Source: an uncultured Ruminococcus sp. (lineage in GTDB: Bacteria > Bacillota > Clostridia > Oscillospirales > CAG-272). Taken from it: DNA of 36,191 nt. The notes under the pieces are model-generated. The model was not told the origin of the DNA. It worked only from the letters and a program-made list of their open reading frames with translations, and made no database searches. Of this stretch, positions 6,340 through 29,864 are shown piece by piece. Every line of letters begins with the position of its first letter. Position 1 is the stretch's first letter. The stretch lies in assembly GCA_902778145.1 (NCBI GenBank), contig CACYWW010000017.1:1-36191 (forward strand). Direction: 5' to 3'. A program made the translations under genes and the position numbers.

Positions 6340-7929
6340 TTACGCCGGCTGTCTGCGCCTGTTTATGAGCGTCACCGCGAGGCGCAGCACCAGGTTGATC
6401 AGCAATATGATCAGCGATACGACCGCGGCTTTTTCTATCTGCATTTGGCTGACCGACTGCGATATCATGACCGCTATCGGTTTCGGCGACGGCGGAGCCA
6501 GCAGTGAAACCGCTGAGATCGTCATCATAGAGTTGACGAAGAAATACACCGCCATTTCGTACATCGTGAACCGCACCTTGGGCAGAATGACGTCGGTTAT
6601 AATGCGTATTCTGCCGACTCCTATCGTTCTGCCGACGGATTCGAGGTCCGGATTGACCTTTCCGAGCGTGTTGTACATCATAAGGTACGGCGAGGCGAAA
6701 AAGTGGATCGTGTTCGCGAGCACTATGATGAAGAACGTTCCGTATATCGGCGTGTTATGGAAGAAAATGACGTACGACAGACCGAGAACCAGACCCGGTA
6801 TAGCCACGGACGTTATGGATATCAGGTGCAGTCCGTTAGAGACCCCGCTTTTCGCTCTTGCGGTCAGATACGCGCAGATGAATGCGAGGACCGTGCCGGA
6901 AAGCGCCGCGAAAACGGAATATATGAGCGAGTTGAGCAGGAATCCGTCGGCGCCGCTCCTCATCGTATCGGCTATATGTGACAGCGTGAACGTCATATCG
7001 TTGGGATACGCGCTCGCGAACATCTGCACACCGAAAGCGACAATCGGCATCGCAACGATCACGGAAAGCAGTATGCAGAAGACGTATGCCGCCGTCCTTG
7101 CCGCCCTGCCCTCTCCGGGCTCCGCGTATTCGGTCACGAAACCGGACTGGCTCTGTTCCGGTACGAGCAGGTCGACCGCGAAAGCGATCACCGCGGGTAT
7201 CAGAAGCAAAAGCCCTACGACGGACGCACGTCCGTATTCCACGCTGAGCACGTTTTCATACATCAGGATAGACACGGTCTTTCCGAACTCCGCATTATAG
7301 AGAGCTTCCGGAACGCCGTAGTCCGTTATTATCATCGTGAAAACCGCAAAAAACGTAGATATGAGCGTTTTTTTCAGATACGGCAGCGTTATGCCGGTGA
7401 AACGTCGGATGCGCGGTATACCGAGGACCGCCGCGGCTTTATACGGCATGCCGTCTTCGTACTGCAGTATGCTCTGCAGCATCAGGAAAGCCACCGGGAA
7501 CGAATACATCACGGATCCGGCGACGATTCCCCAGAAACCGAATATGCTGATGCTGTCTCCGAATATGACGGAAAGTATGCCCGATCCGTTGACGCCGAAC
7601 AGCGCTTTCAGTCCGTACGCGTGCGATATGGACGGTATGAGCATCGGAAGCGTGAAAAGCATGGCGAAAAAGCTCTTTCCACGTATATCCGTCCGGCACA
7701 CCGCGAACGAGGCGCAGAGCGCAAGGACGACGGAGATTACCGTTGCAGTGAGCGTGGTCGTGACCGAATTGATCAGCGCAGGCATGAACTGAGACGACGA
7801 GGTCATCTCTCTGAAGCTTTCAGGCGTGATGCGCAGGAACATCCCGACGATCGGCGCTATAACGACTGTCGCAAAGAACAGCAGCAGACAGAGCTGGATT
7901 ATTATCTTGGTAGTTTTTCTCTGTTTCAT
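6340..7929 (-). CDS. ABC transporter permease, fused two-domain iron/aminoethylphosphonate type
   Basis: This encodes 529 residues with about twelve hydrophobic segments and two copies of the binding-protein-dependent permease domain. Each has an EAA-type loop that contacts the ATPase: KAAAVLGIPRIRRFTGITLP in the first half, and ESVGRTIGVGRIRIITDVIL in the second. This fused layout is that of FbpB-like iron permeases and of transporters in the 2-aminoethylphosphonate class. The ATG overlaps the ATPase stop in an ATGA, so translation is coupled. The stop is followed by the shared terminator at 6303-6335. Substrate specificity rests with the binding protein. Confidence 0.88.
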   Translation of the reverse strand: MKQRKTTKIIIQLCLLLFFATVVIAPIVGMFLRITPESFREMTSSSQFMPALINSVTTTLTATVISVVLALCASFAVCRTDIRGKSFFAMLFTLPMLIPSISHAYGLKALFGVNGSGILSVIFGDSISIFGFWGIVAGSVMYSFPVAFLMLQSILQYEDGMPYKAAAVLGIPRIRRFTGITLPYLKKTLISTFFAVFTMIITDYGVPEALYNAEFGKTVSILMYENVLSVEYGRASVVGLLLLIPAVIAFAVDLLVPEQSQSGFVTEYAEPGEGRAARTAAYVFCILLSVIVAMPIVAFGVQMFASAYPNDMTFTLSHIADTMRSGADGFLLNSLIYSVFAALSGTVLAFICAYLTARAKSGVSNGLHLISITSVAIPGLVLGLSYVIFFHNTPIYGTFFIIVLANTIHFFASPYLMMYNTLGKVNPDLESVGRTIGVGRIRIITDVILPKVRFTMYEMAVYFFVNSMMTISAVSLLAPPSPKPIAVMISQSVSQMQIEKAAVVSLIILLINLVLRLAVTLINRRRQPA

Positions 7930-8702
7930 TCTCTGAGCCCCGGCGCGTATTTTGATAGCGAATCGATCTTGGCGCGCAGGTTGTCAAGCACGAACGACCG
8001 TACGTAGTCGTTTGCCGGCGCCTCACAGATCGTCTCCGGCGTATCGAGCTGGCTGATGACGCCGTTGTCCATTATCATTATCCTGTCGGATAACGCGAAC
8101 GCCTCCTCCTGATCGTGCGTTACGTATATCATGGTCGTGCCGAACGACGACTGTATGCTCTTAAGTTCTTTGCGCATCGACAGACGCGTGGCTACGTCGA
8201 GCGCGGACATCGGTTCGTCGAATAAGATTATATCCGGCTGCAGCGCGAGAGTTCTCGCGATAGCGACTCTCTGCTGCTGTCCTCCGGACAGGTTTTTCGG
8301 CATCGCTTTAACGTACTCGGAAAGACCGACCGCCTCGATCATCTGAAGCGCCTTTTCGTGCGCCGTCGGTCTGGTCTCCTTTTTTATCATTAGGGCGTAT
8401 TCCACGTTTTTCACAACGTTCATGTTCTCGAACAGCGCGTAATTCTGAAAAACGATCCCCATCCCGCGCTTGTCCGGCGCGGCGTTCGTGATATCGACAC
8501 CGTCCTTCACGACGGTACCTGTATCGGGATGCAAAAGTCCTATAAGGATACGGAGAAGCGTCGTCTTGCCGCAGCCCGACGGTCCGAGGATGGAGAGGAA
8601 CTCCCCGTCCCTGACCGTAAAGCTCACGCCTCTCAGAACGTCTTTGTCTTTATAACCCTTTGATAAGTCGCTTATAACGAGTTTGTCGTTCAATGATCCC
8701 AT
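7926..8702 (-). CDS. ABC transporter ATP-binding protein
   Basis: This encodes 258 residues with all ATPase motifs: Walker A GPSGCGKTT (about residues 39-47), Q-loop VFQNYALF, signature LSGGQQQR, Walker B IILFDEP followed by MSALD, and the switch histidine in YVTHDQEEA. It belongs to the CysA/PotA/FbpC-like importer ATPases, although the C-terminal regulatory beta domain of longer members is absent. It overlaps the binding-protein gene by 13 bases and the permease gene by 4. Confidence 0.93.
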   Translation of the reverse strand: MGSLNDKLVISDLSKGYKDKDVLRGVSFTVRDGEFLSILGPSGCGKTTLLRILIGLLHPDTGTVVKDGVDITNAAPDKRGMGIVFQNYALFENMNVVKNVEYALMIKKETRPTAHEKALQMIEAVGLSEYVKAMPKNLSGGQQQRVAIARTLALQPDIILFDEPMSALDVATRLSMRKELKSIQSSFGTTMIYVTHDQEEAFALSDRIMIMDNGVISQLDTPETICEAPANDYVRSFVLDNLRAKIDSLSKYAPGLRE

Positions 8703-9676
8703 TTGGCAAGCAGCCTTTCCTTTTCGGCAAGCGTGTCGTCAGACATATTGCCGTATTTGATATTCTCGGGGAAGTTCGCCATCTTTGGCAGATAATCCTT
8801 ATATATCTGCTCCGGCAGGAACTGTTCGTGGTCTCCTTTGCAGAGAGTGGTCGCAAGATAATTGAAAACTTCCATGACAGCGGTACGTCCGGAGCTCTTC
8901 TTGAGCACCGCGTTGCCGAGCAGGCTGTAAGGCGAGCCCTCTTCAAAGAACAGTATCTTCAACTCGTTGTTGCCGCCGTTGATCTTGACGGCCGCCTGAG
9001 CGGTCATGCCGAGACCGACCGCTACTTCGCGCGCGATGAGCGCCGTGACGGGGCCGGAGCCGGATGAAGTGTACTGAAGGATATTCTCGGAGAGCTTATC
9101 GAAATATGCGAAAGCCTCGTCCTCGCCCCACTCGTTCACGAGCTGGCGCAGGAACATGTACCCGGTGCTCGAGGTCTTCGGAGAAGGCATCGAGACGAGC
9201 CCCTTATACTCCGGTTTTAAGAGGTCAGCGTAGCTCTGCGGTTCTGCCAGACCTTTTTCCGCAAGGACCTTCGTGTTTACGATAACACAGCCGCCGTTCC
9301 GGCATTCGGGCGTGTATTTATGGCTTTCCGGAACTATCTCGGGCATGAATTCCGAATAATCGAAATCGGTAAGCTCCGCAAGGTATTCGGAGCATTTTTC
9401 GAGGTACTGATACTCTTCCGACACAAGTATGTCGGCGGAACATTTGTCTTTTTCCTCAATTACCTTTGCAGCTATGACGCTGGTCTTGTTGTATTCTAGG
9501 ACTATTTCGTACTGCGGGAATTTCTTCTTGCATTCTGAAAGATAATATTCGTTTCTGTAATCCTCGCCGCTCGTCCAGATGACGACCTTTTCTTTCTTTG
9601 AGCTGCAACCGGTAAAAACGGCAAAAACCATCACCGCAATGCATACGAGCGCTGTGATCTTTATGATTTTTCTCAT
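8690..9676 (-). CDS. Extracellular solute-binding lipoprotein of the ABC importer
   Basis: This encodes 328 residues. The N-terminus has a lipoprotein signal with lipobox FTGC (Cys24), so the mature protein is anchored on the outer face of the membrane. The body resembles class-1/6 periplasmic binding proteins for ferric iron, thiamine or 2-aminoethylphosphonate: VVIWTSGEDYRNEY, SADILVSEEYQYLEK, GGCVIVNTKVLAEKGL and SYADLLKPEYKGLVSMPSP. A tyrosine pair typical of ferric-binding proteins is not obvious, and the neighbouring cytidylyltransferase favours an organic phosphorus or amine ligand; this is inference. It is the second gene of the operon. Confidence 0.85.
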   Translation of the reverse strand: MRKIIKITALVCIAVMVFAVFTGCSSKKEKVVIWTSGEDYRNEYYLSECKKKFPQYEIVLEYNKTSVIAAKVIEEKDKCSADILVSEEYQYLEKCSEYLAELTDFDYSEFMPEIVPESHKYTPECRNGGCVIVNTKVLAEKGLAEPQSYADLLKPEYKGLVSMPSPKTSSTGYMFLRQLVNEWGEDEAFAYFDKLSENILQYTSSGSGPVTALIAREVAVGLGMTAQAAVKINGGNNELKILFFEEGSPYSLLGNAVLKKSSGRTAVMEVFNYLATTLCKGDHEQFLPEQIYKDYLPKMANFPENIKYGNMSDDTLAEKERLLAKWDH

Positions 9677-9693
9677 TTTCTATATCCTCCGTG

Positions 9694-10590
9694 TCAGATA
9701 TCATATGTTTTATCTATCGTCTTCAATTCCTTGAAGGTATCTATCTCGACTATATCGCTGTCGAAGCATTCCTTGACCTCTACGGCATAGTGCTCTTTTC
9801 TGTACACTAACGGGACCTGTTCCCAGTAACGCTCCTTGCCTCCAGGAGATCCGTAAACGTCGGCGATATCCTGACTGAGCTTGTGTCCGTCAACCTCGTT
9901 CCAGTAAGAGATGCCGACCATCTGCCAGATGTCTTCACCCTCTCCGCCGACCTTTTCTTCTACGATAACACCGTCTTTTACGCGGAAGCACCAGTCGTCC
10001 GAGCGGTCTTTTTTTATGGCGAGAAAATCAGAGCTGTAATGGTATTTCGTGATGATGCGCGGATTGCTTATGAGAAGATCCGCCTCGAACACGTAGGCGT
10101 TCGACAGCATATATCTCGCCACGAGAGACGAGCTTATGTTGTTCGCCTCGTTGAACGCAGGATTTTCGAGAAATCTTATCATCGGGTATTTGTAAAGCAG
10201 CTGGTCAAACTGCTCCGCCAAATATCCGCGAACGATGTATATCTCGTTTATCCCCGCCTCAAGGCATGCGTCGATGAGCCGGTCTATGATCCTGACGCCG
10301 TGTACGCGGACAAGCGGCTTCGGGGTGTTGAACGTGATCGGCGCGAGACGCGAGCCGAAGCCCGCCGCGATGAAGATCGCTCGCTTCGCTCTGTACGGCT
10401 CGAGCGCGGTGAACCCGGCGTTCGTTATCTTTCCTTCGGAAAGGTACCCCGCCTCCGTCAGCTCCTTCACGACTCTGTTTATCGTCCCGAGAGAATGTCC
10501 CGTCGCCTTTTCAAGCTCACGCTGGGTCATCTGTGAATTGACTTCCGCCGCGGCAACGAGTATATCGAATTGTTTTCTTGTAAGCTCCAT
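9694..10590 (-). CDS. Winged-helix domain fused to LicC/PntC-like cytidylyltransferase
   Basis: This encodes 298 residues from the ATG at 10590, chosen because AACGGAG lies 8 bases ahead; an upstream TTG would bury that site. Residues 1-66 form a MarR-like winged helix (MTQRELEKATGHSLGTINRV as the recognition helix region, then the wing SEGKITNAGF). Residues 69-298 form a nucleotidyltransferase with AAGFGSRLAPIT (75-86) and PKPLV (90-94), plus an acidic pair in VFEADLLI and GISYWNEVDG. These match LicC (CTP:phosphocholine) and PntC (CTP:2-aminoethylphosphonate) enzymes. It leads the operon of the ABC importer. The fusion may let the enzyme sense its substrate or control its own promoter. Choice between the two substrates is not possible here. 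Confidence 0.82.
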   Translation of the reverse strand: MELTRKQFDILVAAAEVNSQMTQRELEKATGHSLGTINRVVKELTEAGYLSEGKITNAGFTALEPYRAKRAIFIAAGFGSRLAPITFNTPKPLVRVHGVRIIDRLIDACLEAGINEIYIVRGYLAEQFDQLLYKYPMIRFLENPAFNEANNISSSLVARYMLSNAYVFEADLLISNPRIITKYHYSSDFLAIKKDRSDDWCFRVKDGVIVEEKVGGEGEDIWQMVGISYWNEVDGHKLSQDIADVYGSPGGKERYWEQVPLVYRKEHYAVEVKECFDSDIVEIDTFKELKTIDKTYDI

Positions 10591-10619
10591 TTCAAAGTCT
10601 CCGTTCAAATGTTCATTTA

Positions 10620-10827: not shown

Positions 10828-13722
10828 TCAATTATACGTGACAGAAGCGATGTTTTCGATCAGTATCTCGTTGTCTGTTTTGAAGAACTTGTTCTCAACT
10901 GTGGAGAAATACTCTATCGAAACGGTTTTTCCGTTGTTTGAAAAATGAAGCAGCGCCACAAGTCCGGACGCCCGGTTGTAATAATCGGTATGCTGCGGGT
11001 TTATCAGGCAGCACGTCACGACGTTCCCGTTTTCTCCCGTCATCTGACTGACGACCACCTCATTGCTCGGATCGTGTCCGCAGAGGACAAGGACTATGTT
11101 CTTATGCTTTGATACGAATTTGTCCCACATCTCGTCGCAGTTGTTGAAGCCCTCGTCACAGCGCGGCGGGCAGATATCGTTCTCATCTATCGTTGTCCCG
11201 TCGTGGAACAGAAACGCGTGCGTCGCTATGATCACGTTATCGTCCGGGTACTGTTCAACTATCCCGGACGCCCATTCAAGCACGTCATCGTCCGGCCCGT
11301 AATCGAGACAGAGAAGCAGATACGGTACGCCGCACACGGTGAAGCGCTTGTAAGTGTGATGCGGTGTTCCGTCGTAGCTTCCGTCGTACTGTTTTCCGTA
11401 AGTCTCGTTATCAAAGTACTTGCCGAACATCAGCTCCTTTGTCGCGACGGCGTCTTCCGTCCTCGCATAGTGGTCGTGATTGCCTCTTACCACCGTATAC
11501 GGGACCTTGCCGTCGAGCCTGTACACCTCGCTGCTGACGATCTCCCACTGCTCGTCTATATTGTCTTCCGTCATATCTCCGAGTCCGATAACACGCTCTA
11601 TTTTCAGTCTTTCGAGATTGTCAAGAATAAAATCGTAAATGCAGTGGACTTTATCCGGATTCAGTTTTACGAGAGACTGGGTGTCGCCTATGCAGGCAAA
11701 CGTGTAATCATAGCTCTCCGGGTCATCGAAATCCTTATCGTAGTAATACGGGACCAGGACGTTTTTTGCGGCGCTTCTGTCCTCGTCGGATTCTTCAAAA
11801 TCAAACGACAGCATAAGCGACGGGTCAGACGTGTCGATCCTGTTTATGTCTTCTTTGATCTGCTCCGCCGTCCTGTACCCGGAGAAAAGGTTCACCGTGC
11901 AGATCCCGCCGTTCCTGAACCACCAGCTGTTATCCGTGCGGTTGTCTCCGCCTATAGAAAACGGGTACGGCGTGAGCTCCGGCAGATATCCGCAATGGGC
12001 TTTTTTGAGCATCAGCTCGCCGTTCAGATATCCGTAAACGTACGTATCGTCTATTGAAAACGCGACGTGTACACGTCCTTTTCCGAGGATCCTGACGGGT
12101 ATCGTGTACTGATCCTGATGATCGTGATCGTATCTCAGGCACAGGCTCGGATTCCCGTTGAGATAGACGCGGAACGTTATACCGGGTACGTACGCATCGT
12201 TGTAATTACCTATGATCGTGCATCCCTTTTTGTTCGACACGTCGGCGTTCGTCTCGATCAGGGCCTCATACGTCAACGGCACGCGATCGAAATTGTCCGT
12301 AAGTGAATAGCGGTCAGAACTGTCCGTTCCGGAAAAGCCCGATCTTTCGCGTTTCAGATCCTTGCCGTACGGTCCGAGATCCCTGACGCTGTCCGCCGTG
12401 TCGAAAACGTATGCGCTCAGAAGCATCGGGTCTGACGTATCCACGCCACAGCGCGCGTCGCGCGCGATGCTGTCGCCATCTCTTACCCCTTCATAAACCG
12501 ACAGCGAGTACACGGTGCCTTTGAAATACTGTGCGTTCCCGTTCCTGCAGTCTCCGCCGATCATCATCCTGTCACACATGGCCGGGACGTCGCAGGTCAT
12601 CTCTTTCTCTTCCTTGAGCGCTCCATCAACGTAAAGCCGGCATACGCCGTCTTTTCCGGGAAGCGTCACCGCGATATGCTTTATTCCGTCACCCCGGATA
12701 TCTGTATCGAAATAAATATTGACCGGGGTCGAATTCCCGTCGGAAATGTACAACCTCAGCTTTCCGCCGTTGTAAGCCTCGACGTTGACCGTACCTCCGC
12801 CCGTACCGTAGTTTCCGAATATGACCCCTCCGCGTAGGGTGACGGACGTGGGAAGGCTGATCGCAGCCTCGACCGTCACGGGAGACGCGGTATAGAAATA
12901 GGGTACGTTCAGGTGATCGTCCGCCGTAAAGCGTATCCCCTCGAGCGAGTCCATCCGTTTGACGGCCGCGCTCACGGTTATGTCGCGGTCAACGGTCAGC
13001 TCTAATTCCGGGCCTGTCCCCAGAACGCTGCCTTCCTCGTCCGTCCAGACGATCAGAGCGGCGGTTGCGTCAACATCCGCGTAAAGCGTCTGCACCGACC
13101 CTTCTTTATACAAGCCGTATGAAAATCCGTCGGACAGGTGCGCGTTTTCAAGCCGTACGTCATAAAACGTTTCGTTTGCGAGCGTGTCTGTCCTGTGATC
13201 GAATTTCAGCTGCGCCATCGCGCCGTACTGACGGAGCGAAGCGGCGAGATCTCTGTTTATCTGCGAGCCGTCTTTTCCGAGCCCGTTCAGAAACTTCAGA
13301 GCGGAATATTTCACCGGCTTGCTGTATATCTCCTCAGACCCTATCTTCGCATACGCGCGGCAGAAAAGCTCGTCGGTCAGGTTTTTCGGCGCTATCCCGT
13401 CCGAATAGAAGACTTCATAGGGCTTGCCGCCGATTTTTGCCTGTCCTTTTGAGCTTGCGGAATACAATTCCGTACCCTTGATATAGCCGTCCGTTCTGAA
13501 CTCGTCCCAGAACAGCAGGGTTATATCCGTGGTTTTCGGATCTATACCGCTATGAGACACGGCGTAAACGATAAAAGTGCTCTCGGCATATGAAAGGTTG
13601 TAGTAATCAACACTGAGCTCCGGCGTCTCCTCCGCGGCAGGCGTATCCGCCGCGGATACGAGTACGAACGGTATCAGGATAAGTACGAGCACCGCGCACC
13701 GCAGTATTTTGCTTTTGTTCAT
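10828..13722 (-). CDS. Secreted LamG-LamG-metallophosphatase protein with shared N-terminal module
   Basis: This encodes 964 residues. A signal peptide (1-25, hydrophobic CAVLVLILIPFVLVSA) is followed by an N-terminal module (about 35-256) homologous to the one in the giant protein at 16070-22567; both contain FYSDGIAPKNL and a KFDHxTDxLA block. Two concanavalin/LamG-like domains follow (about 262-445 and 465-650; FKGTVYSLSVYEG, SIGGDNR). The C-terminal calcineurin-like phosphatase (673-940) has GDTQ (D680), GLGDMTED (D716), RGNHDH (N748, H749), THAF (H835) and CGHD (H883). The usual His after the first Asp is Gln, a change I recall from other bacterial members. It has no LPXTG, SLH or dockerin sequence. 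It is the last gene of the operon; no strong ribosome binding site is visible. Confidence 0.85.
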   Translation of the reverse strand: MNKSKILRCAVLVLILIPFVLVSAADTPAAEETPELSVDYYNLSYAESTFIVYAVSHSGIDPKTTDITLLFWDEFRTDGYIKGTELYSASSKGQAKIGGKPYEVFYSDGIAPKNLTDELFCRAYAKIGSEEIYSKPVKYSALKFLNGLGKDGSQINRDLAASLRQYGAMAQLKFDHRTDTLANETFYDVRLENAHLSDGFSYGLYKEGSVQTLYADVDATAALIVWTDEEGSVLGTGPELELTVDRDITVSAAVKRMDSLEGIRFTADDHLNVPYFYTASPVTVEAAISLPTSVTLRGGVIFGNYGTGGGTVNVEAYNGGKLRLYISDGNSTPVNIYFDTDIRGDGIKHIAVTLPGKDGVCRLYVDGALKEEKEMTCDVPAMCDRMMIGGDCRNGNAQYFKGTVYSLSVYEGVRDGDSIARDARCGVDTSDPMLLSAYVFDTADSVRDLGPYGKDLKRERSGFSGTDSSDRYSLTDNFDRVPLTYEALIETNADVSNKKGCTIIGNYNDAYVPGITFRVYLNGNPSLCLRYDHDHQDQYTIPVRILGKGRVHVAFSIDDTYVYGYLNGELMLKKAHCGYLPELTPYPFSIGGDNRTDNSWWFRNGGICTVNLFSGYRTAEQIKEDINRIDTSDPSLMLSFDFEESDEDRSAAKNVLVPYYYDKDFDDPESYDYTFACIGDTQSLVKLNPDKVHCIYDFILDNLERLKIERVIGLGDMTEDNIDEQWEIVSSEVYRLDGKVPYTVVRGNHDHYARTEDAVATKELMFGKYFDNETYGKQYDGSYDGTPHHTYKRFTVCGVPYLLLCLDYGPDDDVLEWASGIVEQYPDDNVIIATHAFLFHDGTTIDENDICPPRCDEGFNNCDEMWDKFVSKHKNIVLVLCGHDPSNEVVVSQMTGENGNVVTCCLINPQHTDYYNRASGLVALLHFSNNGKTVSIEYFSTVENKFFKTDNEILIENIASVTYN

Positions 13723-13799: not shown

Positions 13800-13928
13800 T
13801 TACGACTGCCAGTCGCCCCAGTCGACGTTGTCGTCGGTGACGGATCCGGTCACTACGTCCGCAGCGTCAAATTCGATCAGCTCGATCTCGGCTTTGACGT
13901 ATTCTTTCTTTTCTTTGACGTTATTCAT
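13800..13928 (-). CDS. 42-residue peptide with tail DDNVDWGDWQS
   Basis: This gene begins MNNVKEKKEYVKAEIELIEF, continues DAADVVTGSVT, and ends DDNVDWGDWQS. A full AGGAGG lies 6 bases ahead of the ATG, the best site in this operon, so translation is likely. It has no signal peptide or membrane segment. The front half resembles a pattern I recall from small Clostridia peptides (x-PEIE-hydrophobic-x-FDAEDVI-x-T/S), not verified by search. The last eleven residues match the end of the lipoprotein encoded immediately upstream (DDNVDWDAWQT) at nine positions, and the DNA there is also alike. It could be a modified-peptide precursor, an exported signal, or a partner that carries a shared recognition tail; none is proven. 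Confidence 0.75.
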   Translation of the reverse strand: MNNVKEKKEYVKAEIELIEFDAADVVTGSVTDDNVDWGDWQS

Positions 13929-13957
13929 AATGTTCCTCCTGTCTTTCAGGCAGACCG

Positions 13958-14398
13958 TCACGTCTGCCACGCATCCCAGTCGACGTTATCGTCATACGGG
14001 TGTTCTTCCGTTTCTTTTTCGGTCGATGAGGAAGTCTCATCTTTTATTTTTTCCGTAGATGTCACAGGCTCGGTGTCGGGCGCTCCGGTCGTCTGTACTC
14101 CGGTCGTCTGCATGTCCTCAGACGTTTCTCCGGCGCTTACGGGCGTCTGTCCGTCGGTGTCCGCGGCCCCGGTCCGGTCTTCACCGTCTGTTTCGGTCGA
14201 AGACGGTCCCACGGCAGTGATCGCCGCACCCGTTTTATCCGTCTGTTCCGCGATACCCGTGTCCTTCGCGGAGGAAACGGGGACGTCCCCTCCGCGGCAC
14301 GACGCGAGCGTCAGCACTACGGCGGCGAGGATCGGGGCGAGGAGCCTGTCAGATCGCGCCGTACGTCGTTGCATGGCCGAACGTTGTGTAGAAATCAT
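13958..14398 (-). CDS. Small Ser/Thr-rich lipoprotein ending in DDNVDWDAWQT
   Basis: This encodes 146 residues. A basic N-terminus and hydrophobic stretch end in the lipobox LASC (Cys34), predicting a lipid-anchored extracellular protein. The mature part (about 35-130) is low-complexity, rich in Thr, Ser, Glu, Asp and Gly, and has no recognised domain: a probable flexible stalk. It ends with YDDNVDWDAWQT, almost the same tail as the 42-residue peptide that follows 29 bases later. The reading frame overlaps the end of the phospholipase-D-like gene by 50 bases. An internal ATG at 14374 gives a 26-residue lipoprotein signal and is equally plausible; neither start has a strong ribosome binding site, so translational coupling is likely. 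Confidence 0.75.
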   Translation of the reverse strand: MISTQRSAMQRRTARSDRLLAPILAAVVLTLASCRGGDVPVSSAKDTGIAEQTDKTGAAITAVGPSSTETDGEDRTGAADTDGQTPVSAGETSEDMQTTGVQTTGAPDTEPVTSTEKIKDETSSSTEKETEEHPYDDNVDWDAWQT

Positions 14399-16046
14399 GG
14401 TTTTCTTCGGTCTCTTTTATAACGAGAACGCTGTTTGTCCTCTGCCAGAACGGGCCCACGCCGAAGTTGGCGGAGCTTATTATGGAAACGTATTTCCGCT
14501 CCCCGTCCTTCTCATAGGACATTACGATGTCCTTTGAGTGGAGGTACTTGTTCAGGTTTTTGTTGACGTATTTGAATCCTATGTCCTTGCCGACCACGAG
14601 GTCGTTATACCTGCTTTCGGAGAAGGATTCGAAATGCATGTAAATACGGTTTTCGGGGCTTTTGTTTCTGTGGAACGCCTCGCAGATGATATCTTCGAAC
14701 GTATACTCGAAGAAATTCGTACATGAGTTGTACGGCATGTTCCACGTGAACACTATGGGACCGGTGGAAGCCGCCATTTCCGAAAGATACTTGGCATACG
14801 GGTTGTGCACTGTGTCCCAAACCATCACCGCGCCGGGAAGCGGCGTGAAGCACATTTCGAAGATACTGTCCGTATCGCTTCCGAGATAGACGAGCTTTTC
14901 GTCCTCGGGGATCGTGTCCCCCTGTCCTTCACGGATCAGATCGATCTGTTCCGTCTGACGGCATCTGATCAGATCGCGGAAACGCGGAAGATCGTCTCTT
15001 CTCCTGTAATCCGAAATAAGATCGAGGTAATTCTTTGTCACGTTCACGAGCGCCGCGTGATCCGATATGACAACTCCGGACTGAGAGCCTGTATTGCCGT
15101 TGCGTCCTTTATAGTCGTTTTCGTCAAGATTTGACGACGTGAGGAAGATGCTCGGTCCGTGTTCGACTCCGTCCTTGTCAAGATAATTCGAGACGATCGT
15201 CGTCTTTATATGATTCATATCGGCGCCTCTCGCGTCGACGTCCCAGCCGACGTGAGCGAAGTTGAAGAAATCCGAGACCTTCTTTCCGTTTGCGTACTCG
15301 CTGTAACACGCCCTGTTCATCGAGCCGTTGAAATACGTCACGTGAGAGAGATTCGATTTATAAGCATAGTGCTTTTCCGCGGTTTCGGAATACTGATTCG
15401 TACCGTACGAATCGAGCTGTGTGACTGCCGTCACATGTATCCCCATTCTCGCGGCTTCTACGAGCATGAATGAAATGCGGATGAAGCCGTGGTCGTCATA
15501 TTCGCGGTCGAACAGCGATCTCATGTATCCGAAGTAACGGCTGTTTCTGTCTACGCAGACAGACGCAGTGACCGAGGTCCGGTATGACGAAAAGTACAGG
15601 AACATCTCCTCTTCCGGGTGTCTTACCTTGTACTGTATGCACTGATATATGAGTATTCCCTGTGCAAAGTTCGGGTCGTCTATCGAATCGCCCGGGTCGC
15701 GGTTGAGGCTGTCGACCGTTACGGTCTTTCCGTTGATATTCGCATACGTCGCTGTGCCGAGGCTTGAGAAGTTCGATCTGTTTTCCGATACGGGAAGCTG
15801 ATCGAACCACATATCGATCGACGTCTCGTTGTCAAGCGAGTACACGTTGTCCATGTAGTTGTTGAAGAACGGCGAGTCGCTCGTATAAGAATGTTTTATA
15901 ACGTTAGCTGCCGCCGCTTTTGACGGGGCAAGCAGCAATATGCTGCCTGCCACCGCGAAGAGCGCGAGCGCGACTGCCGTCACGCTTCTGAACACACGCT
16001 TTTTCACGGCTTTTCCGTCACTGTTTTTGTTTTCTGCTTTTTTCAT
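14349..16046 (-). CDS. Secreted phospholipase-D-fold protein with altered HKD motifs
   Basis: This encodes 565 residues with a signal sequence (about 18-47, ALALFAVAGSILLLAPSKAAAA). Two half-sites of the phospholipase D fold can be seen. The first is H279-x-K281 followed by TSSN (303-306). The second is H503-x-K505 followed by SSAN (524-527), with FG next. In both the Asp that normally follows four residues after the Lys is Ser (S286, S510), while His, Lys and Asn are kept. Such a protein would be expected to act on phosphodiesters outside the cell, but the double substitution makes activity uncertain. It starts 23 bases after the giant beta-helix gene stops and overlaps the lipoprotein gene. 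Confidence 0.75.
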   Translation of the reverse strand: MKKAENKNSDGKAVKKRVFRSVTAVALALFAVAGSILLLAPSKAAAANVIKHSYTSDSPFFNNYMDNVYSLDNETSIDMWFDQLPVSENRSNFSSLGTATYANINGKTVTVDSLNRDPGDSIDDPNFAQGILIYQCIQYKVRHPEEEMFLYFSSYRTSVTASVCVDRNSRYFGYMRSLFDREYDDHGFIRISFMLVEAARMGIHVTAVTQLDSYGTNQYSETAEKHYAYKSNLSHVTYFNGSMNRACYSEYANGKKVSDFFNFAHVGWDVDARGADMNHIKTTIVSNYLDKDGVEHGPSIFLTSSNLDENDYKGRNGNTGSQSGVVISDHAALVNVTKNYLDLISDYRRRDDLPRFRDLIRCRQTEQIDLIREGQGDTIPEDEKLVYLGSDTDSIFEMCFTPLPGAVMVWDTVHNPYAKYLSEMAASTGPIVFTWNMPYNSCTNFFEYTFEDIICEAFHRNKSPENRIYMHFESFSESRYNDLVVGKDIGFKYVNKNLNKYLHSKDIVMSYEKDGERKYVSIISSANFGVGPFWQRTNSVLVIKETEENHDFYTTFGHATTYGAI

Positions 16047-16069: not shown

Positions 16070-19000
16070 TCAGACGTACGTGACGTTCGTCAGCGTACCG
16101 ATGATGAGCAGCGAGAAATCGACGGGATCGTTATTGACGTCGGTCACGCCGGCTGCCGTCACGGTAACGTACGCGCCGGTGTTTCCGATGTTGATCGGAT
16201 CGCCTCCGTTCTGGTCGAACGTCGCGCTGTTTATCGTGAAGTGTGTGTTCTTGCCGGAACCGTTCGTAACGTAGACCGCGTCGCCCTTGGCTCCCGACTC
16301 GTTGTCCTTTACCGTCACGTTCGTCCACGTCATATTGGTGGCGCATGAATGATATATCGCACCGCCGTTGCCGGTCGAGGTATTGCCCTCGAATCTGCAG
16401 TTCGTGAACGTCGCGTCGGTACCGTCAAGGTAGAGGTACACGGCGCCGCCGAGGTTAGTCGCGCTGTTCGAGATGAAGTCCGTATCGACCGCCGTCAGGC
16501 TGACCTTGCCGTACAGAGCCAGCGCACCGCCGTTCGTCGCGCTGTTCGACGTGAACGTGCATCCGTTGAGCGTAAGCGTCGCCGCGTCGGAATTATCGGA
16601 TCTGCCAAGCTGGATCGCGCCGCCGGTGTTATTGGTGGACGCGTTTCCGTTAAACTCCGTATCCGTTATAACGGCGTTCGCGGTCTCAAAGATGTAGATC
16701 GCTCCGCCCGCGGCCTTCGAACGGTTGCCGTTGAATTCGGAACCGTTGATCGTCAGGCTTGCCGTGCCTCTCGCACAGATCGCACCGCCTGCGTACTTTT
16801 CGATATGGTTGCCGTTGAACACACAATCGTCGATGACAGAGACTGACGTGCCGTTCATATAGACCGCGCCCGCGTAATACGAGCCGTCTCCCATGCCCGA
16901 GTTCCCTGTGAACGTGCAGCCGTTGAAATTCGTGTTGCCGCTGTTTGAATATACCGCGCCGCCCTGGCCGGTCGCCGTGTTATCGTTAAAGATACAGTTT
17001 ACGGCTTCAAAGGAGCTTGTCGAACTGTTTACGAACACCGCGCCGCCGCCGACAGCGGAGTTGCCATCGAACGTTGCGTTTTCGGCGGTAAAATGTGAAT
17101 TCGTATTCACGTATACGGCTCCGCCGCCGGATCCGCCCGCGCAAACATTAGATCCGAAGATCGTTCCGTCGGCGTCGAGCAATCCCTGTTCGCCGTTGCC
17201 TCCCTGACGCAGATAGATCGCGCCGCCCTGGCCCGAAGTACCGCTGTTGCCGGAGATCTCACCGCCCGTGAGTCTGACGTCGGCGCCGTAGATTATCATC
17301 GCGCCGCCGTATCCGGCTGTATTCTCCGTGATCACGGTGTTATCTATCGTGCAGACCGCCGATTCTTTTGCGTAGATCGCGCCGCCGGATCCGGGAACGG
17401 TATTTTCGCTGAGTGTTGAATCGGATATATTGAGCGTCGTGTCCGCCTCGGCGTAGACGGCTCCGCCGCCGGTCGATCCGGCGGTATTGGCTGTCAGAGC
17501 CGTACCGGTGATATCGGCGCTCGCGCCTTTCTTCACGTAGATCGCACCGCCGCCGACAGCGTTATTGCCGCTGAACGTGCAGTCTGTGACCGTCGCCGAG
17601 CTGTTGTCGTTTTCGTCCTTACCGATCTGGAGCGCTCCGCCGGTGGTATTCGATCTGTTGTTATTGAACGTCGTATTCTTTATCGTCGCGGTTATGCCGA
17701 ATACGTGCACCGCGCCGCCGACGCCTGCTGTGTAGTTTTCTTCGAACAGACATCCGTCAAGTTCGAGAGAGCCCGTGCCTCTCGCGCAGATTGCGCCGCC
17801 CGTTCCGTGGGTGTTGTTGTTGCCCCTGAACTCGCATTCCGTCATGGTGAGACGCGACGTTCCGTTCGTGTATATCGCGCCGCCGTACCACGCGGATGTG
17901 CCTGTCGTGGAGTTGTTTGTGAAATCGGTATCGGTCATCGTTGCCGTCGCGCTGTTGGAGTAGTAGGCGCCGCCTATGCCGACAGAGGTGTTCCCGTCGA
18001 ACAGCGAGCCATCGACCGTGAGCGTCGCGTTCGTGTTCGCGTAAACCGCGCCGCCGGTCCCTGATGACGTATTACCGGTGAATTCCGTACCTGTGATATC
18101 AAGGATCACGTTTTTGTTGGCGTATATCGCGCCGCCGTCGCCGCTTCCGGTGGAGTTTCCGTTGAACGTCGAATCGCTTACGTCCGCCGTACCGTTGGTG
18201 TCGATGTAGATCGCGCCGCCGTATCCGGACGCGGAGTTGCCGTCAAACGTACAGTTGTCCGCGTTGAACGTGCAGTATTCACGTACGAGGACAGCGCCGC
18301 CTTTGCCGCTCGCGGCAGTAGACGCCGTGGCGCTGTTGTTGCCGAACGTTGTGCGGATCGCCGTCACGGTGGTACCGAGGGTCTCGGATTTGTGACGTAT
18401 ATACATGCCGCCGGCCCACGCCGTAGCGGTGTTGTCCGAGATCTCCGAATCGGTGATCGTGACGTTCGAACCGTAGCCAGCAAGTATCGCGCCGCCGTAG
18501 CTGTCGGCGCCGTTGATACCGGAGTCGTTATGACTCATGACGCAGTTATTGACCATGCCGGTCGCCTCCACGAAGTAGAGAGCGCCGCCGGAGCCCTTGG
18601 TCGCGTTATACGTAAGGTCGGTATCGGAAATAATGAGCGTCGCGTGCGTATCGCAATAGATGCCGCCGCCGCCCGACGCCGTGTTGCCGTTGTCGGCTCC
18701 GCCTATAACGCTGCGCTTGCCCTGTGAGGCTTTGACTGTAACAGCGGAGTTAAACGCGTACAGGAAACCGCCGTTTGCGTTTGCGCTGTTGCCTTCAGCC
18801 GTTACGTCCGTCAGCTCGACCGTGCTCGTCGTATAAGCCGCTATCGCGCCGCCGTTGACATTCGACCCGTTTTCTTTGAATACGGCGTCATTGAATTTGC
18901 CTGTGGAGTTGGTGAAGTATATCGCACCGCCTCCGTACTGTGTGTTTTCGGATCTGTTGTTTTCGAACGAGCAGCCGTTCGAGATGAGCGTTGCACGGCT

Positions 19001-22000
19001 GTTATTGTAGACCGCGCCGCCGTTTGCGTTTGAAGTGTTTCCGCTGAAACCGCAGTCCGTGAATTCCGCCGTGGTAGCGCTTATATGTGCGGCGCCGCCG
19101 TGAGAATTCGCGGTATTGCCGGTGAACGTGCATCCGGTCGCTTTGATAACGGTAGTCGCGTTATCGTAATCGATCGCCATCAGCGCTCCGCCGGAGCCGT
19201 CCGAATGGTTGTTTTCAAACGTGCAGTCCTTCGCTGTAACGGTACTTGCGACACGTGTGGTAACGGGATTTTCGGGATCGGTATCATCCGTCACGGTACG
19301 GTACGAGGCATAAAGCGCGCCGCCGTTGCCGCTGACTCCCGCGCCTTCCTCGGGCGTTGTCGTGGATGTGGAGTTTCCGGTGAACGTGACGTTCGTGAGT
19401 TCAAGCTTCTTTACGCCGTGAAGCGATATCGCGCCGCCGTTTCCGACAGAGGAGTTATCCTTCATCTGCGTTCCGCTTATCGAGACGGTACAGTTGAGGT
19501 CCGCGAACAGCGCTCCGGCTTCACCGTCTGACGTATTGTTCTCGATCCTGCCGCCCGTCATCACCACGTCAGCGCCGGTGTTGTCGCCGAGGCGATTGAT
19601 ATAGTAAGCCGCGCCGTGGACCGTCACGCTGTTGTTTATCGCGACACAGTCGGTCACGGTCGTATCGCCGCCGACTATCGCTGCCGCCGCACCGTATTTA
19701 GCGGTGTTTCCGTCGAACGTGACGCCGGTCAGCTTTGTCGTTCTGCGGTCGGACGCGTTTGCGGTAATATATACCGCGCCGCCCGTTCCGGCATGGTTGT
19801 TCGTGAATACCGCGCCGGGTCCGATCTCTCCGCAGTTTGCGAGATAAACGGCGCCGCCGTTTCCGGGAGTCGTATTGGAATCAAACGTGCATCCGCCGTA
19901 GATCAGGGTATAGCACTTCGCTCCGCTGTAGATCGCGCCGCCGGACGAGACCGTAGTATAGTTGTTTCTGAATATAACGTCGTCGGGATCGCCGTTCTCG
20001 CTGCCTACGGTGAGAACTCTTCCTTCGGAGTTATAAACGTATATCGCGCCGCCGGCGTGAGACGTGAAGTTGCCGTCGAAGACGCCGCCCAGGATCTTGC
20101 ATTCCTGGAAATTGGCGATCGCACCGCCGTAATAACCGCTGTTGCCGGTTATCATACCGCCGGTCATCGTGAAGTTGCTGTTGTTGAAGATCGCGCCGCC
20201 GTAGCACGACTGCAGATAAAGCTCATTCGTCGTGTCTCCCGCGCCGGGATCATCAAAGTTCGTTTCGTTGTCTCTTATAACACCGCCGTCCATCGTCACG
20301 ACGCCGTTGATATTTACTATCGCCGCGCCGCCGACCATGCTTCCGTAATACTGCTGCATGCCGAGTGAGCGGGCGTTCGAGACCTTCTTATTGTTCGCCA
20401 GGACCGCGTTTTCGTGGATGTTGAGCGTGCCGGAGTTGTTTATGTAAACAATGGATCCGAACACATCGTCCGTGACGTTTTCCTTGTTTCCGTCTATCGT
20501 GAGAGTTCCCTCTGCCTCGGGCTTGCCGAGATCGAGCTTGCAGATGATACCGTCGAGTATCAGGTTCCTGCCGGTGGAATTCTCACCTATGACGAACATA
20601 TCGCTGAAGAAGTCGGGATCTCTGATTATCGAAACGTCGCTGTTCGAGAACAGTGTGACATCGGAGATCACGTATACCGTGCGGTCAAGCACGATGTCGT
20701 TCATGACCTCTATGCTGCGGGTACCGTGTCCCGCGTGATATACGAGTTCCTCGGCGTTCGTTACCTGTGCGTAGTCGAGTATCTCGTCAAGCTCCGTGCT
20801 GCCGATAAGAGAGCCGGCGTCAAGGAGGTTGTAGCTTACGCAGCAGTTGGGATCATCCGCGTTCGCCAGTATCAGGTCCGCGTTGATCTCCTCTTCCGTC
20901 CTGATGTCGCGGAACACGGACGCCGAATAGACCGTACCTTTGAAGCTCTGGCTGTTGCCGGTACGGTTGTCTCCGCCGAGGACGAGAGTCCTCTTGATCT
21001 GCGGCATCGCAAAATCGGCAAGCTCCTTTGTTTCCGCAAGCTGTCCGTCGATGTACAGCTTCGCAACGCCTCTTTCAAGCGTTATCGCGATATTGACAAC
21101 GTCTTCGCTTCTGATATCGGTATCAAAAACGTAGTCATACTTTGTATCCTTGTCTGTCATGAAGAACAGACGCGGATGGCCGTTCGTGTATATTTCGAGG
21201 TTGAATCCGGGATTCTTTCCGTCGTAGTTGCCGAGGATGACGCCCGCACGCTGTGAATAGTCCGGATCCAGCTGTACAGACGCTTCTATCGTATAAACAG
21301 ACGAATCGAAATTATACGGTATCGCGAATTTGCCTGCCGTAGTAAAATCGACGCCGGAGTAAAGCGAATAATCGAAATCGGAATTGTATTCGTCGCCGCA
21401 TACCGAACACACGTGATGTGTGTATCCTCTCGCCTCGCCCGCGGGCTCAACGACGGTCTCCTCATAGCTGTGAGGATCGGTGGCGGGGAGCAGCTCATAT
21501 CCCTCGGTATAGTCGCATCTCGTGCAATAATCGTAGGCGGTCCAGCCGTCTACGCACGTGGCGGGTTTCGCGTCCACGTGTACGAGATCGTGTCCGAGAG
21601 CCGGAATGACGACCGGGCCGGATATCAGCGCGTGATCCGCGTCAAAATCATGCTCGCAGAGATCGCAGTGGTAGTGTCCGACGACGCCGTCTTCTGTACA
21701 TGTCGCATCGGCGGCCTCTATCCACTCGCCGAAATCGTGATCGCAGTACGCGGGATCTGAGGAAACGACCGCACGCACGGTCATATCGCGGTCAAGCGTT
21801 ATATCGATCTCGGGTTCGGTGCCGAGGACGTTGTCCTCATCGTCAAGCCATTTGGCGAACGATTCGCCTTCCGGTATCTGCGCCTTGAGATGAAGGACTT
21901 CGTTCTCCTTGTACAGACCGTACGCGAATCCGTCGTCAAGAACGGCGTTTTCAAGCTCGATGTAGTAATGAGTATCCGTCGCGAGATCGTCAGTCTGATG

Positions 22001-22567
22001 ATCGAACTTGATCTGCGCGCACGCCGCGTAATTCAAAAGAGCGTTGGCTATGTTTACGTTGACCTCACTCTGTGTCGGCGAAAGCGCCATGTTGCGCAGG
22101 AAGAGGATGGGGCTGTATTTTACGGGTTCACTGTAGTACGTGACGCCGTCGATCTCCGTATACGCACGGCAATAGATCCTGTCGATCAGATTCTTGGGAG
22201 CTATGCCGTCTGAATAGAAGATCTCGTGAGGTACTCCTCCTATCTTGTTCGTGCCTTTTGACTCTGCCTCGTACTTTTCCGTGTCTTTCAGATAACCGCC
22301 TGTTATCTGAGGCTCCTCCCAGAAAAGCATTTTGACAGGGTGCTCGCTCGCACTGAAGTTCTCGCAGTTGACTGCGAAAAGAACGTACGTCGAGTCGGAA
22401 TAGGAAAAGTTCTTATACTTTATCTCGAGACGCGGGGCAGCGCCGTCGCCGCTTTCCTCGGCAGATCCGGCAAGCACCGTTCCCGAAGACATGCAAAGCA
22501 TAAAAACCACCAGTAGTGCGGATACGATGAGCGTCCATGCATATCCGCGCCTTGCCTGCTTCTTCAT
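16070..22567 (-). CDS. Giant secreted beta-helix protein with GGAI/FxxN repeats
   Basis: This encodes 2165 residues from the ATG at 22567, which has GGAGGAG 6 bases ahead; further upstream in-frame codons lie inside the promoter. Order: signal peptide (1-33); N-terminal module shared with the metallophosphatase protein (44-270); a section with CxxC pairs and GH or TC-rich turns (274-398: CDLC, CTRC, CSVC); a LamG-like domain (403-595); then about 1550 residues of right-handed parallel beta-helix. The helix has roughly 45 copies of GGA(I/V)Y-like turns alternating with FxxNxS/T, the pattern of chlamydial polymorphic membrane proteins and bacterial adhesins. No LPXTG, SLH or dockerin is seen at the C-terminus (LLIIGTLTNVTYV). 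It is the first gene of the operon and probably a surface or matrix adhesin. Confidence 0.88.
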   Translation of the reverse strand: MKKQARRGYAWTLIVSALLVVFMLCMSSGTVLAGSAEESGDGAAPRLEIKYKNFSYSDSTYVLFAVNCENFSASEHPVKMLFWEEPQITGGYLKDTEKYEAESKGTNKIGGVPHEIFYSDGIAPKNLIDRIYCRAYTEIDGVTYYSEPVKYSPILFLRNMALSPTQSEVNVNIANALLNYAACAQIKFDHQTDDLATDTHYYIELENAVLDDGFAYGLYKENEVLHLKAQIPEGESFAKWLDDEDNVLGTEPEIDITLDRDMTVRAVVSSDPAYCDHDFGEWIEAADATCTEDGVVGHYHCDLCEHDFDADHALISGPVVIPALGHDLVHVDAKPATCVDGWTAYDYCTRCDYTEGYELLPATDPHSYEETVVEPAGEARGYTHHVCSVCGDEYNSDFDYSLYSGVDFTTAGKFAIPYNFDSSVYTIEASVQLDPDYSQRAGVILGNYDGKNPGFNLEIYTNGHPRLFFMTDKDTKYDYVFDTDIRSEDVVNIAITLERGVAKLYIDGQLAETKELADFAMPQIKRTLVLGGDNRTGNSQSFKGTVYSASVFRDIRTEEEINADLILANADDPNCCVSYNLLDAGSLIGSTELDEILDYAQVTNAEELVYHAGHGTRSIEVMNDIVLDRTVYVISDVTLFSNSDVSIIRDPDFFSDMFVIGENSTGRNLILDGIICKLDLGKPEAEGTLTIDGNKENVTDDVFGSIVYINNSGTLNIHENAVLANNKKVSNARSLGMQQYYGSMVGGAAIVNINGVVTMDGGVIRDNETNFDDPGAGDTTNELYLQSCYGGAIFNNSNFTMTGGMITGNSGYYGGAIANFQECKILGGVFDGNFTSHAGGAIYVYNSEGRVLTVGSENGDPDDVIFRNNYTTVSSGGAIYSGAKCYTLIYGGCTFDSNTTPGNGGAVYLANCGEIGPGAVFTNNHAGTGGAVYITANASDRRTTKLTGVTFDGNTAKYGAAAAIVGGDTTVTDCVAINNSVTVHGAAYYINRLGDNTGADVVMTGGRIENNTSDGEAGALFADLNCTVSISGTQMKDNSSVGNGGAISLHGVKKLELTNVTFTGNSTSTTTPEEGAGVSGNGGALYASYRTVTDDTDPENPVTTRVASTVTAKDCTFENNHSDGSGGALMAIDYDNATTVIKATGCTFTGNTANSHGGAAHISATTAEFTDCGFSGNTSNANGGAVYNNSRATLISNGCSFENNRSENTQYGGGAIYFTNSTGKFNDAVFKENGSNVNGGAIAAYTTSTVELTDVTAEGNSANANGGFLYAFNSAVTVKASQGKRSVIGGADNGNTASGGGGIYCDTHATLIISDTDLTYNATKGSGGALYFVEATGMVNNCVMSHNDSGINGADSYGGAILAGYGSNVTITDSEISDNTATAWAGGMYIRHKSETLGTTVTAIRTTFGNNSATASTAASGKGGAVLVREYCTFNADNCTFDGNSASGYGGAIYIDTNGTADVSDSTFNGNSTGSGDGGAIYANKNVILDITGTEFTGNTSSGTGGAVYANTNATLTVDGSLFDGNTSVGIGGAYYSNSATATMTDTDFTNNSTTGTSAWYGGAIYTNGTSRLTMTECEFRGNNNTHGTGGAICARGTGSLELDGCLFEENYTAGVGGAVHVFGITATIKNTTFNNNRSNTTGGALQIGKDENDNSSATVTDCTFSGNNAVGGGAIYVKKGASADITGTALTANTAGSTGGGAVYAEADTTLNISDSTLSENTVPGSGGAIYAKESAVCTIDNTVITENTAGYGGAMIIYGADVRLTGGEISGNSGTSGQGGAIYLRQGGNGEQGLLDADGTIFGSNVCAGGSGGGAVYVNTNSHFTAENATFDGNSAVGGGAVFVNSSTSSFEAVNCIFNDNTATGQGGAVYSNSGNTNFNGCTFTGNSGMGDGSYYAGAVYMNGTSVSVIDDCVFNGNHIEKYAGGAICARGTASLTINGSEFNGNRSKAAGGAIYIFETANAVITDTEFNGNASTNNTGGAIQLGRSDNSDAATLTLNGCTFTSNSATNGGALALYGKVSLTAVDTDFISNSATNLGGAVYLYLDGTDATFTNCRFEGNTSTGNGGAIYHSCATNMTWTNVTVKDNESGAKGDAVYVTNGSGKNTHFTINSATFDQNGGDPINIGNTGAYVTVTAAGVTDVNNDPVDFSLLIIGTLTNVTYV

Positions 22568-22628
22568 TGATTTCTCCTCCGTTTGATTTTGGATATTATC
22601 TCCATTATACTCAATAATATACGAGTAC

Positions 22629-22657
22629 ATTATATATTTACGCGTACCGATTGTCAA
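22629..22657 (-). promoter_or_regulatory. Perfect-consensus sigma-A promoter of the secreted-protein operon
   Basis: On the minus strand TTGACA (22652-22657), a 17-base spacer and TATAAT (22629-22634), both exact. The leader to the ATG at 22567 is about 55 bases of A/T-rich sequence. No obvious operator is seen. Confidence 0.9.
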
Positions 22658-24092: not shown

Positions 24093-24106
24093 CCTGTTTT
24101 GCCCGC

Positions 24107-25255: not shown

Positions 25256-25301
25256 ATTCTTTTTTCCTTTCTCATCTCATCCGGATGTCAGCGCATCCGT
25301 T

Positions 25302-26237: not shown

Positions 26238-26293
26238 ATGTTTTCTTCCTCCGGATATATATCGTTATAAAAATAAAACTTTTGCTTTTCTTC

Positions 26294-28419: not shown

Positions 28420-28427
28420 ATATCCGA

Positions 28428-29765: not shown

Positions 29766-29864
29766 GTTTTCTCCTGTTTTTTGACGGTCTTTGCCTGTTT
29801 TCACAGATAAAAGCAACAGTTATATCAGCAGTTTATCCGTGCTGACTTTTTCGGGTTTATTCTT

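Follow-up and report, generated by a model that had tools for sequence, protein, structure and literature searches.

Several described systems resemble parts of the locus analysed here. In the enterococcal pheromone/inhibitor pairs, similar short peptides are encoded twice, by a dedicated short gene and within a lipoprotein gene, where the signal peptide is the source. The paeninodin and pseudomycoidin lasso-peptide clusters comprise an HprK-like kinase (PadeK, ThcoK or PsmK), the PqqD-like protein B1 and the nucleotidyltransferase PsmN. For the lasso-peptide kinases, PMC9266682 reports a His-Lys-Asp-Asp motif and modification of the precursor C-terminus by these HprK-like enzymes. Precursor leaders from Ruminococcus appear in PMC7533575, and the Y..P-type leader of the family described below is comparable to them. 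Our search of the PMC literature, which lay outside most subscription papers and does not imply absence from print, returned mainly papers on lasso peptides and radical SAM enzymes; we found neither this leader family nor the tail sharing reported here described among them.

We analysed 36,191 nucleotides from an uncultured Ruminococcus sp. (contig CACYWW010000017.1 of assembly GCA_902778145.1), henceforth referred to as the window. Its gene order is giant protein, PLD-like protein, lipoprotein, peptide and LamG/metallophosphoesterase protein. The features are as follows:

13800 to 13928 including the stop, minus strand: RiPP-like precursor peptide of 42 aa, recognised by its frame and AGGAGG site; leader, residues 1-29; tail, residues 30-42
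13842 to 13928, minus strand: leader MNNVKEKKEYVKAEIELIEFDAADVVTGS of the peptide, whose end DVVTGS corresponds to the family motif D[IV][IV]T[TA]S in an alignment of 38 leaders
13803 to 13835, minus strand: common tail, peptide copy, DDNVDWGDWQS
13935 to 13940, minus strand: Shine-Dalgarno sequence AGGAGG of the peptide gene, 6 nt before the ATG at 13928
13958 to 14398, minus strand: lipoprotein with a low-complexity stalk and the lipobox TLASC, starting at ATG 14398 (146 aa) or ATG 14374 (138 aa)
13961 to 13993, minus strand: common tail, lipoprotein copy, DDNVDWDAWQT
14349 to 16046, minus strand: exported protein upstream in the gene row, called PLD-like in the preliminary description; no Pfam match above cut-off
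16070 to 22657, minus strand: giant beta-helix/LamG surface protein, upstream (PF02415, PF13229, PF13385)
10828 to 13722, minus strand: LamG and metallophosphoesterase surface protein, downstream (PF13385, PF00149)
34369 to 35526, minus strand: NTP_transf_5 protein (PF14907), of a family recurrent in maturation cassettes
3899 to 5059, plus strand: second NTP_transf_5 protein (PF14907), of the same recurrent family

The preliminary description had claimed that the peptide and the adjacent lipoprotein both end in DDNVDWxxWQ(S/T) and that the likeness extends to the DNA, and both claims were confirmed. The peptide, MNNVKEKKEYVKAEIELIEFDAADVVTGSVTDDNVDWGDWQS, is read from the ATG at 13928 to the stop at 13800 (its open frame extends upstream of this ATG to a GTG at 13970). 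The lipoprotein gene lies directly upstream on the same strand, in a frame ending at 13958, and its product has the C-terminus ...HPYDDNVDWDAWQT. The tails are identical at 27 of the 33 final coding bases, with one synonymous GAC/GAT difference, and no similarity is evident between the two genes just upstream of them; the plus-strand words CCAGTCGACGTTGTCGTC and CCAGTCGACGTTATCGTC both occur in the window. The pattern DDN[VIM]DWxxW was detected at two sites in the 2.42-Mb assembly (88% complete) and its reversed control at none. When WQ was added and three mismatches were allowed, no third copy was found in the assembly (control 0). The observed alignment score of the tails was reached by 13 out of 200,000 shuffles of the peptide tail. 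With two sites, an empty control and so few shuffles, the similarity is well beyond chance.

Other readings of the two genes also held. The AGGAGG site is present as described, and inspection by eye and with simple scripts agreed that the peptide has no signal sequence and that the lipoprotein is predicted to be exported with a flexible stalk (beyond position 35, 86% of the residues belong to the set S, T, D, E, G, P, N, Q, A and K). No clear Shine-Dalgarno sequence precedes the lipoprotein start, and the lipoprotein frame overlaps the stop of the PLD-like gene, which suggests that the two may be translationally coupled. Neither the peptide nor the lipoprotein matched a Pfam or NCBIfam family above cut-off.

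The window peptide is a member of a large family of short open reading frames (ORFs) that combine a conserved leader with a variable acidic tail. Comparison with a paralog in the same genome, MKEYKTPEIEVIEIESEVVTGSWDVGDWA (locus L062), identified the first half of the peptide as the conserved part. A BLAST search of the genus with the whole peptide returned, besides the peptide itself, only weak matches (E 0.23-0.95), and the leader profile outperformed it for finding relatives. A profile of four leaders had matches in 67 out of 146 genomes of the bacterial family at the loose threshold of E ≤ 1, partly chance matches in long frames, and a profile of 38 leaders had matches in 89 out of 394 genomes of the order at E ≤ 0.01. 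The conserved leader of the family has the pattern Y..P.IEII......D[IV][IV]T[TA]S. Among 122 peptides from 121 loci (window included), the leader end has D in 116, T in 91 and the final S in 117, the T sitting two positions before the final S. The 117 distinct tails are mostly acidic, with a median length of 17; 46 have W among their last six residues, and Cys is rare (0.6% of tail residues). Because only 15 of the 117 end in S or T, C-terminal Ser/Thr phosphorylation, as in paeninodin, was dropped as a general rule for the purpose of the tails. We note that gene calls in the fetched loci came from a simple script, and that starts and some small genes may be wrong.

The leader family is linked to PqqD at the level of genomes. 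PqqD-type genes were detected in 81 of the 89 leader-bearing genomes vs 111 of the 305 others (Fisher 2.5e-21, a value that is too small because the genomes are not independent by descent, although the direction is clear). PqqD was also the commonest Pfam family among the precursor neighbours, with 6 members in the 123 shorter of 189 listed neighbours; most neighbours are unrelated, and some PqqD loci have no leader peptide beside them. Out of 20 loci surveyed, nine were listed gene by gene, L213 in part, and the other ten were covered by a script scan for kinase, PqqD and protease motifs only. By eye, the cassettes hold varying sets of a precursor, an HprK-like kinase, PqqD, an S24/S26-like protein and NTP_transf_5, with a radical SAM protein in three loci (L059, L157 and L174) and an ABC transporter in L157. 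The invariant H, K and D of the HprK-like kinases (10 out of 10 aligned) fit the His-Lys-Asp-Asp motif given for lasso kinases in PMC9266682. The kinases that we scanned had no Pfam match above cut-off, and PDB searches with a kinase alone or with the kinase profile found nothing. The S26-like proteins have H and GD in 9 out of 9 cases and S in 8 out of 9 (the remaining one is truncated by its called start), and their profile weakly matches signal peptidase I 4nv4 (E 0.0098). This H/S/GD arrangement is that of ER-type signal peptidases, a kind of protease to which the leader end, with its small residues at -3 and -1, would be suited.

The genome of the window encodes a PqqD/kinase pair on a different contig, C8 (L203), in the order giant protein, leader-like peptide MKKIYVTPEVEEYKLYLNAITTASGGIFDDDSTADDYNGKKDVL, HprK-like kinase and PqqD. 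Neither an S26-like protease nor a radical SAM enzyme was detected next to this pair. By eye, a 2,204-aa subtilisin-like surface protein precedes it (L203:8953-15567). A second PqqD gene, on contig C37, has no kinase or leader peptide in view. The PqqD/HprK pair is our best lead to a processing partner; a link between the two NTP_transf_5 proteins of the window and the peptide is only possible.

We compared these loci with the known systems. A short precursor, a PqqD-type protein, an HprK-like kinase with H/K/D and NTP_transf_5 are common to them and to the paeninodin and pseudomycoidin clusters. Unlike the lasso clusters, they mostly lack the leader peptidase B2 (PF13471): in 50 leader-bearing genomes, 46 of them from the 89, PF13471 was matched in four at E ≤ 0.001 (one above cut-off, three weak), and it was not found in the genome of the window (assembly 88% complete). 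They also differ in the S26-like protein of several cassettes, in precursors scattered beside giant surface proteins and in having copies of the tail on exported proteins. A lasso core has a small first residue and a ring Asp/Glu at position 7-9; for such a core some tails lack the length (down to 6 residues, in the paralog of L062), and others, including that of the window, are long enough. We rejected a lasso peptide as defined, B2 being mostly lacking. The HprK-like protein of L157 matches ScmC of the SynChlorMet system at E 8e-5, and radical SAM proteins occur in L059, L157 and L174, but ScmC scores were 22.1 and 16.8 bits for the two kinases scanned vs a curated cut-off of 125. The same three loci recall the radical SAM/SPASM RiPP maturases (TIGR04463, PapB, Clo7bot) in having such a protein near the precursor, but the best match reached 127.5 bits vs a cut-off of 525 and the tails here are mostly without Cys; no radical SAM protein was seen beside the window peptide or the L203 PqqD pair. 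Whereas the enterococcal pairs use the lipoprotein signal peptide, the pair in the window uses the extreme C-terminus. The closest fit is a RiPP precursor with a PqqD-type RRE, for which we found both a conserved leader followed by a variable core and an RRE protein in the genome (81 of 89; in the window's own genome at L203, on another contig). We consider it very likely that the 42-aa peptide is a RiPP-type precursor, and probable that the tail is its core.

The only ortholog of the window locus that we found is L223, in the metagenome-assembled genome of uncultured Ruminococcus sp. RUG12823. Its order is PLD-like gene (79% identity), peptide MVTEEKKERVKFEDAELVIIEFEKSDVITESDDNAGTWL and metallophosphoesterase; no lipoprotein lies between the PLD-like gene and the peptide, which is intact. 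The peptide is therefore the syntenic, kept element, and the lipoprotein is either an addition in the lineage of the window or a loss in that of L223. The preliminary description had named a broken peptide frame or mismatched tails in homologous loci as evidence against its reading. In this respect L223 is neutral, its peptide frame being intact and a second tail to compare being absent. DDNAGTW has no further exact copy in its genome; with 3 mismatches there were 10 matches besides itself vs 6 for the reversed-pattern control, which is background-like. A second leader peptide is present in this genome.

The same description had offered the PLD-like protein or the metallophosphatase as the partner of the tail, and neither was supported. 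Homologues of the PLD-like protein occur in 12 out of 295 genomes of the bacterial family, the window's own included. We inspected about 1.5 kb to either side of the 12 other PLD-like matches. None of these loci yielded a scoring leader peptide or a convincing tail lipoprotein; the stalk-like frames at L110 and L111 resembled a short ORF in the opposite frame and the end of a beta-helix. We dropped this candidate on these grounds. The metallophosphatase adjoins the peptide in L223 too, and nothing connects it to the tail. As a separate observation, the PLD-like protein (14349-16046) has relatives with 38-46% identity in 11 further genomes of the bacterial family; by eye, these relatives often lie beside beta-helix-type surface proteins or in one very long frame with them. 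Long genes are common upstream of the precursors: an ORF of at least 600 aa directly precedes 53 out of 118 precursors on the same strand vs 59 out of 656 control genes. The 53 include the paralog at L062 but not the peptide of the window, because the PLD-like and lipoprotein genes stand between this peptide and the giant protein.

To assess tail sharing at other loci, we set each peptide tail against the C-terminal 26 residues encoded by each of its neighbouring genes. Tails of fewer than 7 residues including the last leader residue (fewer than 8 in the permutation tests), duplicate tails and loci in which no gene on the same strand lay within 4 kb were left out. Out of 1,289 tail pairs, 14 had p ≤ 0.0017, where 2.2 were expected; next came the pair of the window at 0.00171, the smallest value that its sample allowed. 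About three of the 14 (L149, L098 and the opposite-strand row of L187) look like chance. Ordinary paralogues and repeats that topped a pairwise-tail scan (the first row of L043, L048 and L054) were not counted as evidence. For the locus permutation test, we excluded the window, considered same-strand neighbours within 4 kb and permuted tails among loci 5,000 times. At a score of ≥ 34, 10 of the 114 loci had a match vs 0.50 by permutation (maximum 5 in 5,000), and at ≥ 26 there were 17 vs 4.0 (maximum 12 of 5,000). The own locus ranked first for 8 of the 114 tails (about 1 expected). For exported neighbours within 400 bp, the counts were 5 out of 87 vs 0.21 at ≥ 34 (maximum 3) and 6 out of 87 vs 1.39 at ≥ 26, the latter inside the permutation maximum of 8.

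The matches came from 10 genomes at ≥ 26 and from 6 at both ≥ 30 and ≥ 34, and half of the loci at ≥ 34 belong to a single genome, G094, which has 10 leader matches at E ≤ 0.01 and one PqqD match. Without G094, we counted 10 out of 103 loci vs 2.86 at ≥ 26 (maximum 11, p 0.001), 6 vs 0.86 at ≥ 30 (maximum 5) and 5 vs 0.27 at ≥ 34 (maximum 4). With one locus per genome, the mean at ≥ 34 was 3.65 (minimum 2) vs 0.22 (maximum 3). Among the 11 peptides of G094, two of which have a neighbour in common, own-locus pairing exceeded shuffled pairing (p 0.00015). Some matches with scores of 26-29, such as L076, are probably chance. Tail sharing thus recurs beside homologous peptides, with locus-specific tails, above permutation. 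It is a minority trait, and most precursors have no tail partner within 4 kb.

Individual pairs illustrate the range. EGDNGTGWG is present in both the precursor tail and that of its neighbour at L179. The tail pairs are IELPIIPVK and IELPIITV at L157, GDIGDWA and GDISGDWTEN at L080, INLPIDPF and VDLPVDSF at L065 (a lipoprotein, 3 bp away) and IPGGGWV and IPEDGWVEQ at L182, where the partner is a 1,397-aa lipoprotein. At L089, a lipoprotein ending in AIELPFVPD adjoins a precursor ending in NELPIVIDDLT, a pair that is not among the permutation-test matches. Stalked exported tail proteins lie among cassette genes at L059, L157, L163, L179 and L213; at L163 and L174, the likeness between the precursor tail and the local stalked tail protein is not clear. 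In addition, two exported proteins can have a common tail, as at L055 (LPWDEF twice), L061 and L213 (EPSMEDLATSDEGWTGIY twice).

Several of these loci have features of their own. In L213 (4981-6599), the adjacent exported proteins (188 and about 350 aa) with the identical end EPSMEDLATSDEGWTGIY stand directly before an HprK-like kinase and PqqD, and no leader peptide was found in this stretch. L061 (6381-6905) encodes a lipoprotein of 59 aa, hardly more than an anchored tail, which it has in common with the adjacent dockerin-like protein (NFNDLFGE and NFGELFG); in another genome, the leader peptide of L222 ends in ENWNDLFG, similar to these tails. By eye, [ED]LP-type tails occur on the stalked exported proteins of L059, L065, L073, L089, L157, L163 and L174, and also in precursor tails, e.g., those of L147, L155 and L173.

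The two tails of the window, the leader family with its genome-level PqqD link and the recurrent tail sharing are read from sequence, and they can be accommodated in a single mechanism. The leader would be recognised in trans by the PqqD-type protein that is encoded with the HprK-like kinase on another contig. The core, corresponding to the tail (about VTDDNVDWGDWQS), would be modified, released from the leader by cleavage after T-x-S, for which an ER-type S26-like protease like that of the sister cassettes is the probable enzyme, and exported in free form. In the lipoprotein the same core would take a second format, with Sec/lipoprotein export placing the tail copy on a flexible, lipid-anchored stalk outside the cell. 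Since the lipoprotein would display the same tail outside the cell, free and displayed tails may meet one partner, for which a surface component encoded in the neighbouring giant-protein operon is the likeliest candidate, and one tail would tune the other by competing with it or recruiting for it. We put forward the meeting with one partner tentatively, at somewhat less than even confidence, and the mechanism as a whole, which is our best explanation, is offered with the same reserve. It retains from the preliminary description the idea of a tail kept in two products, which the recurrence of the pairing with unrelated tails above permutation supports, and discards the partners named there.

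The near-invariant leader end, the PqqD link, the L203 cassette, the conserved residues of the kinases and S26-like proteins, tail sharing above permutation, stalked tail proteins in cassettes and long ORFs before precursors count for this explanation. Against it stand the minority of loci that share tails, the less clear looser cut-offs, the ortholog without a lipoprotein or a further exact tail copy in its genome, and the position of the window peptide, which does not directly follow a long ORF. The location of the PqqD/kinase pair on another contig without an S26-like protease or radical SAM enzyme, the unclear tails of L163 and L174 and the missing leader peptide of L213 also weigh against it. 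A still more doubtful generalisation is that such a system is widespread in these bacteria and that one short core is produced twice: as a RiPP freed from its leader, and at the C-terminal tip of a surface protein that is either lipid-anchored or giant. Each locus would then have its own tail as a code by which free peptide, displayed peptide and surface partner are matched.

The ortholog L223, which has the peptide and no lipoprotein, makes functionless local copying the main rival: a recent short duplication or gene conversion would have moved the 3' end between the two genes, in either direction. The 27 identical bases out of 33, with nothing similar just upstream, agree with such an event. 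We nevertheless consider it rather unlikely, as the same pairing recurs with unrelated tails in other genomes above permutation and tail-bearing exported proteins are recurrent among maturation-cassette genes. Resemblance by chance or through composition is scarcely credible by comparison. Family tails are acidic and in 46 of 117 cases have W within the last six residues, and at the loose score of 26 composition-shuffled neighbours (200 rounds) gave 6.0 loci (maximum 15) vs 17 observed; at ≥ 34, however, they gave 0.5 (maximum 4) vs 10 observed, and few shuffles (13 out of 200,000) reached the score of the window's own pair.

Two further alternatives give the tail a function and differ in what the lipoprotein copy is for. 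The tail could be the recognition site of a cytosolic cassette that modifies the C-termini of both lipoprotein and precursor before export. PqqD proteins normally need a leader, and the tail lipoproteins examined show none; a common C-terminal Ser/Thr is also missing from the family tails (15 of 117). We regard this alternative as unlikely, even though tail proteins lie among kinase, PqqD, protease or nucleotidyltransferase genes and, according to PMC9266682, lasso kinases of this kind act on the precursor C-terminus. Alternatively, the mature peptide could be a bacteriocin-like agent whose target on the producer is blocked by the lipoprotein-borne copy. RiPP loci often carry immunity lipoproteins, and the stalk is lipid-anchored. 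Known immunity lipoproteins, however, bind the peptide and do not copy it, and most precursors have no tail partner, which makes this explanation improbable.

These results place an orphan 42-aa gene in a very large family of precursors with ties to PqqD/HprK/S26/NTP_transf_5 cassettes, and the tail copied onto neighbouring surface proteins provides a testable handle on what these peptides bind. The recurrence of this pairing, with other tails, beside some related precursors of other bacteria hints at an undescribed system of peptides and surface proteins. If the pairing is functional, it would link RiPP cores and surface anchors in a way that, to our knowledge, was previously undescribed.

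Two other regions of the window were inspected by eye. At 6340-10608, ABC importer genes adjoin a LicC-like nucleotidyltransferase with an N-terminal winged helix. At 22730-29816, the genes encode what we take to resemble fumarase subunits, citrate-lyase-like and phosphonopyruvate-decarboxylase-like enzymes, which suggests phosphonate or organic-acid metabolism.
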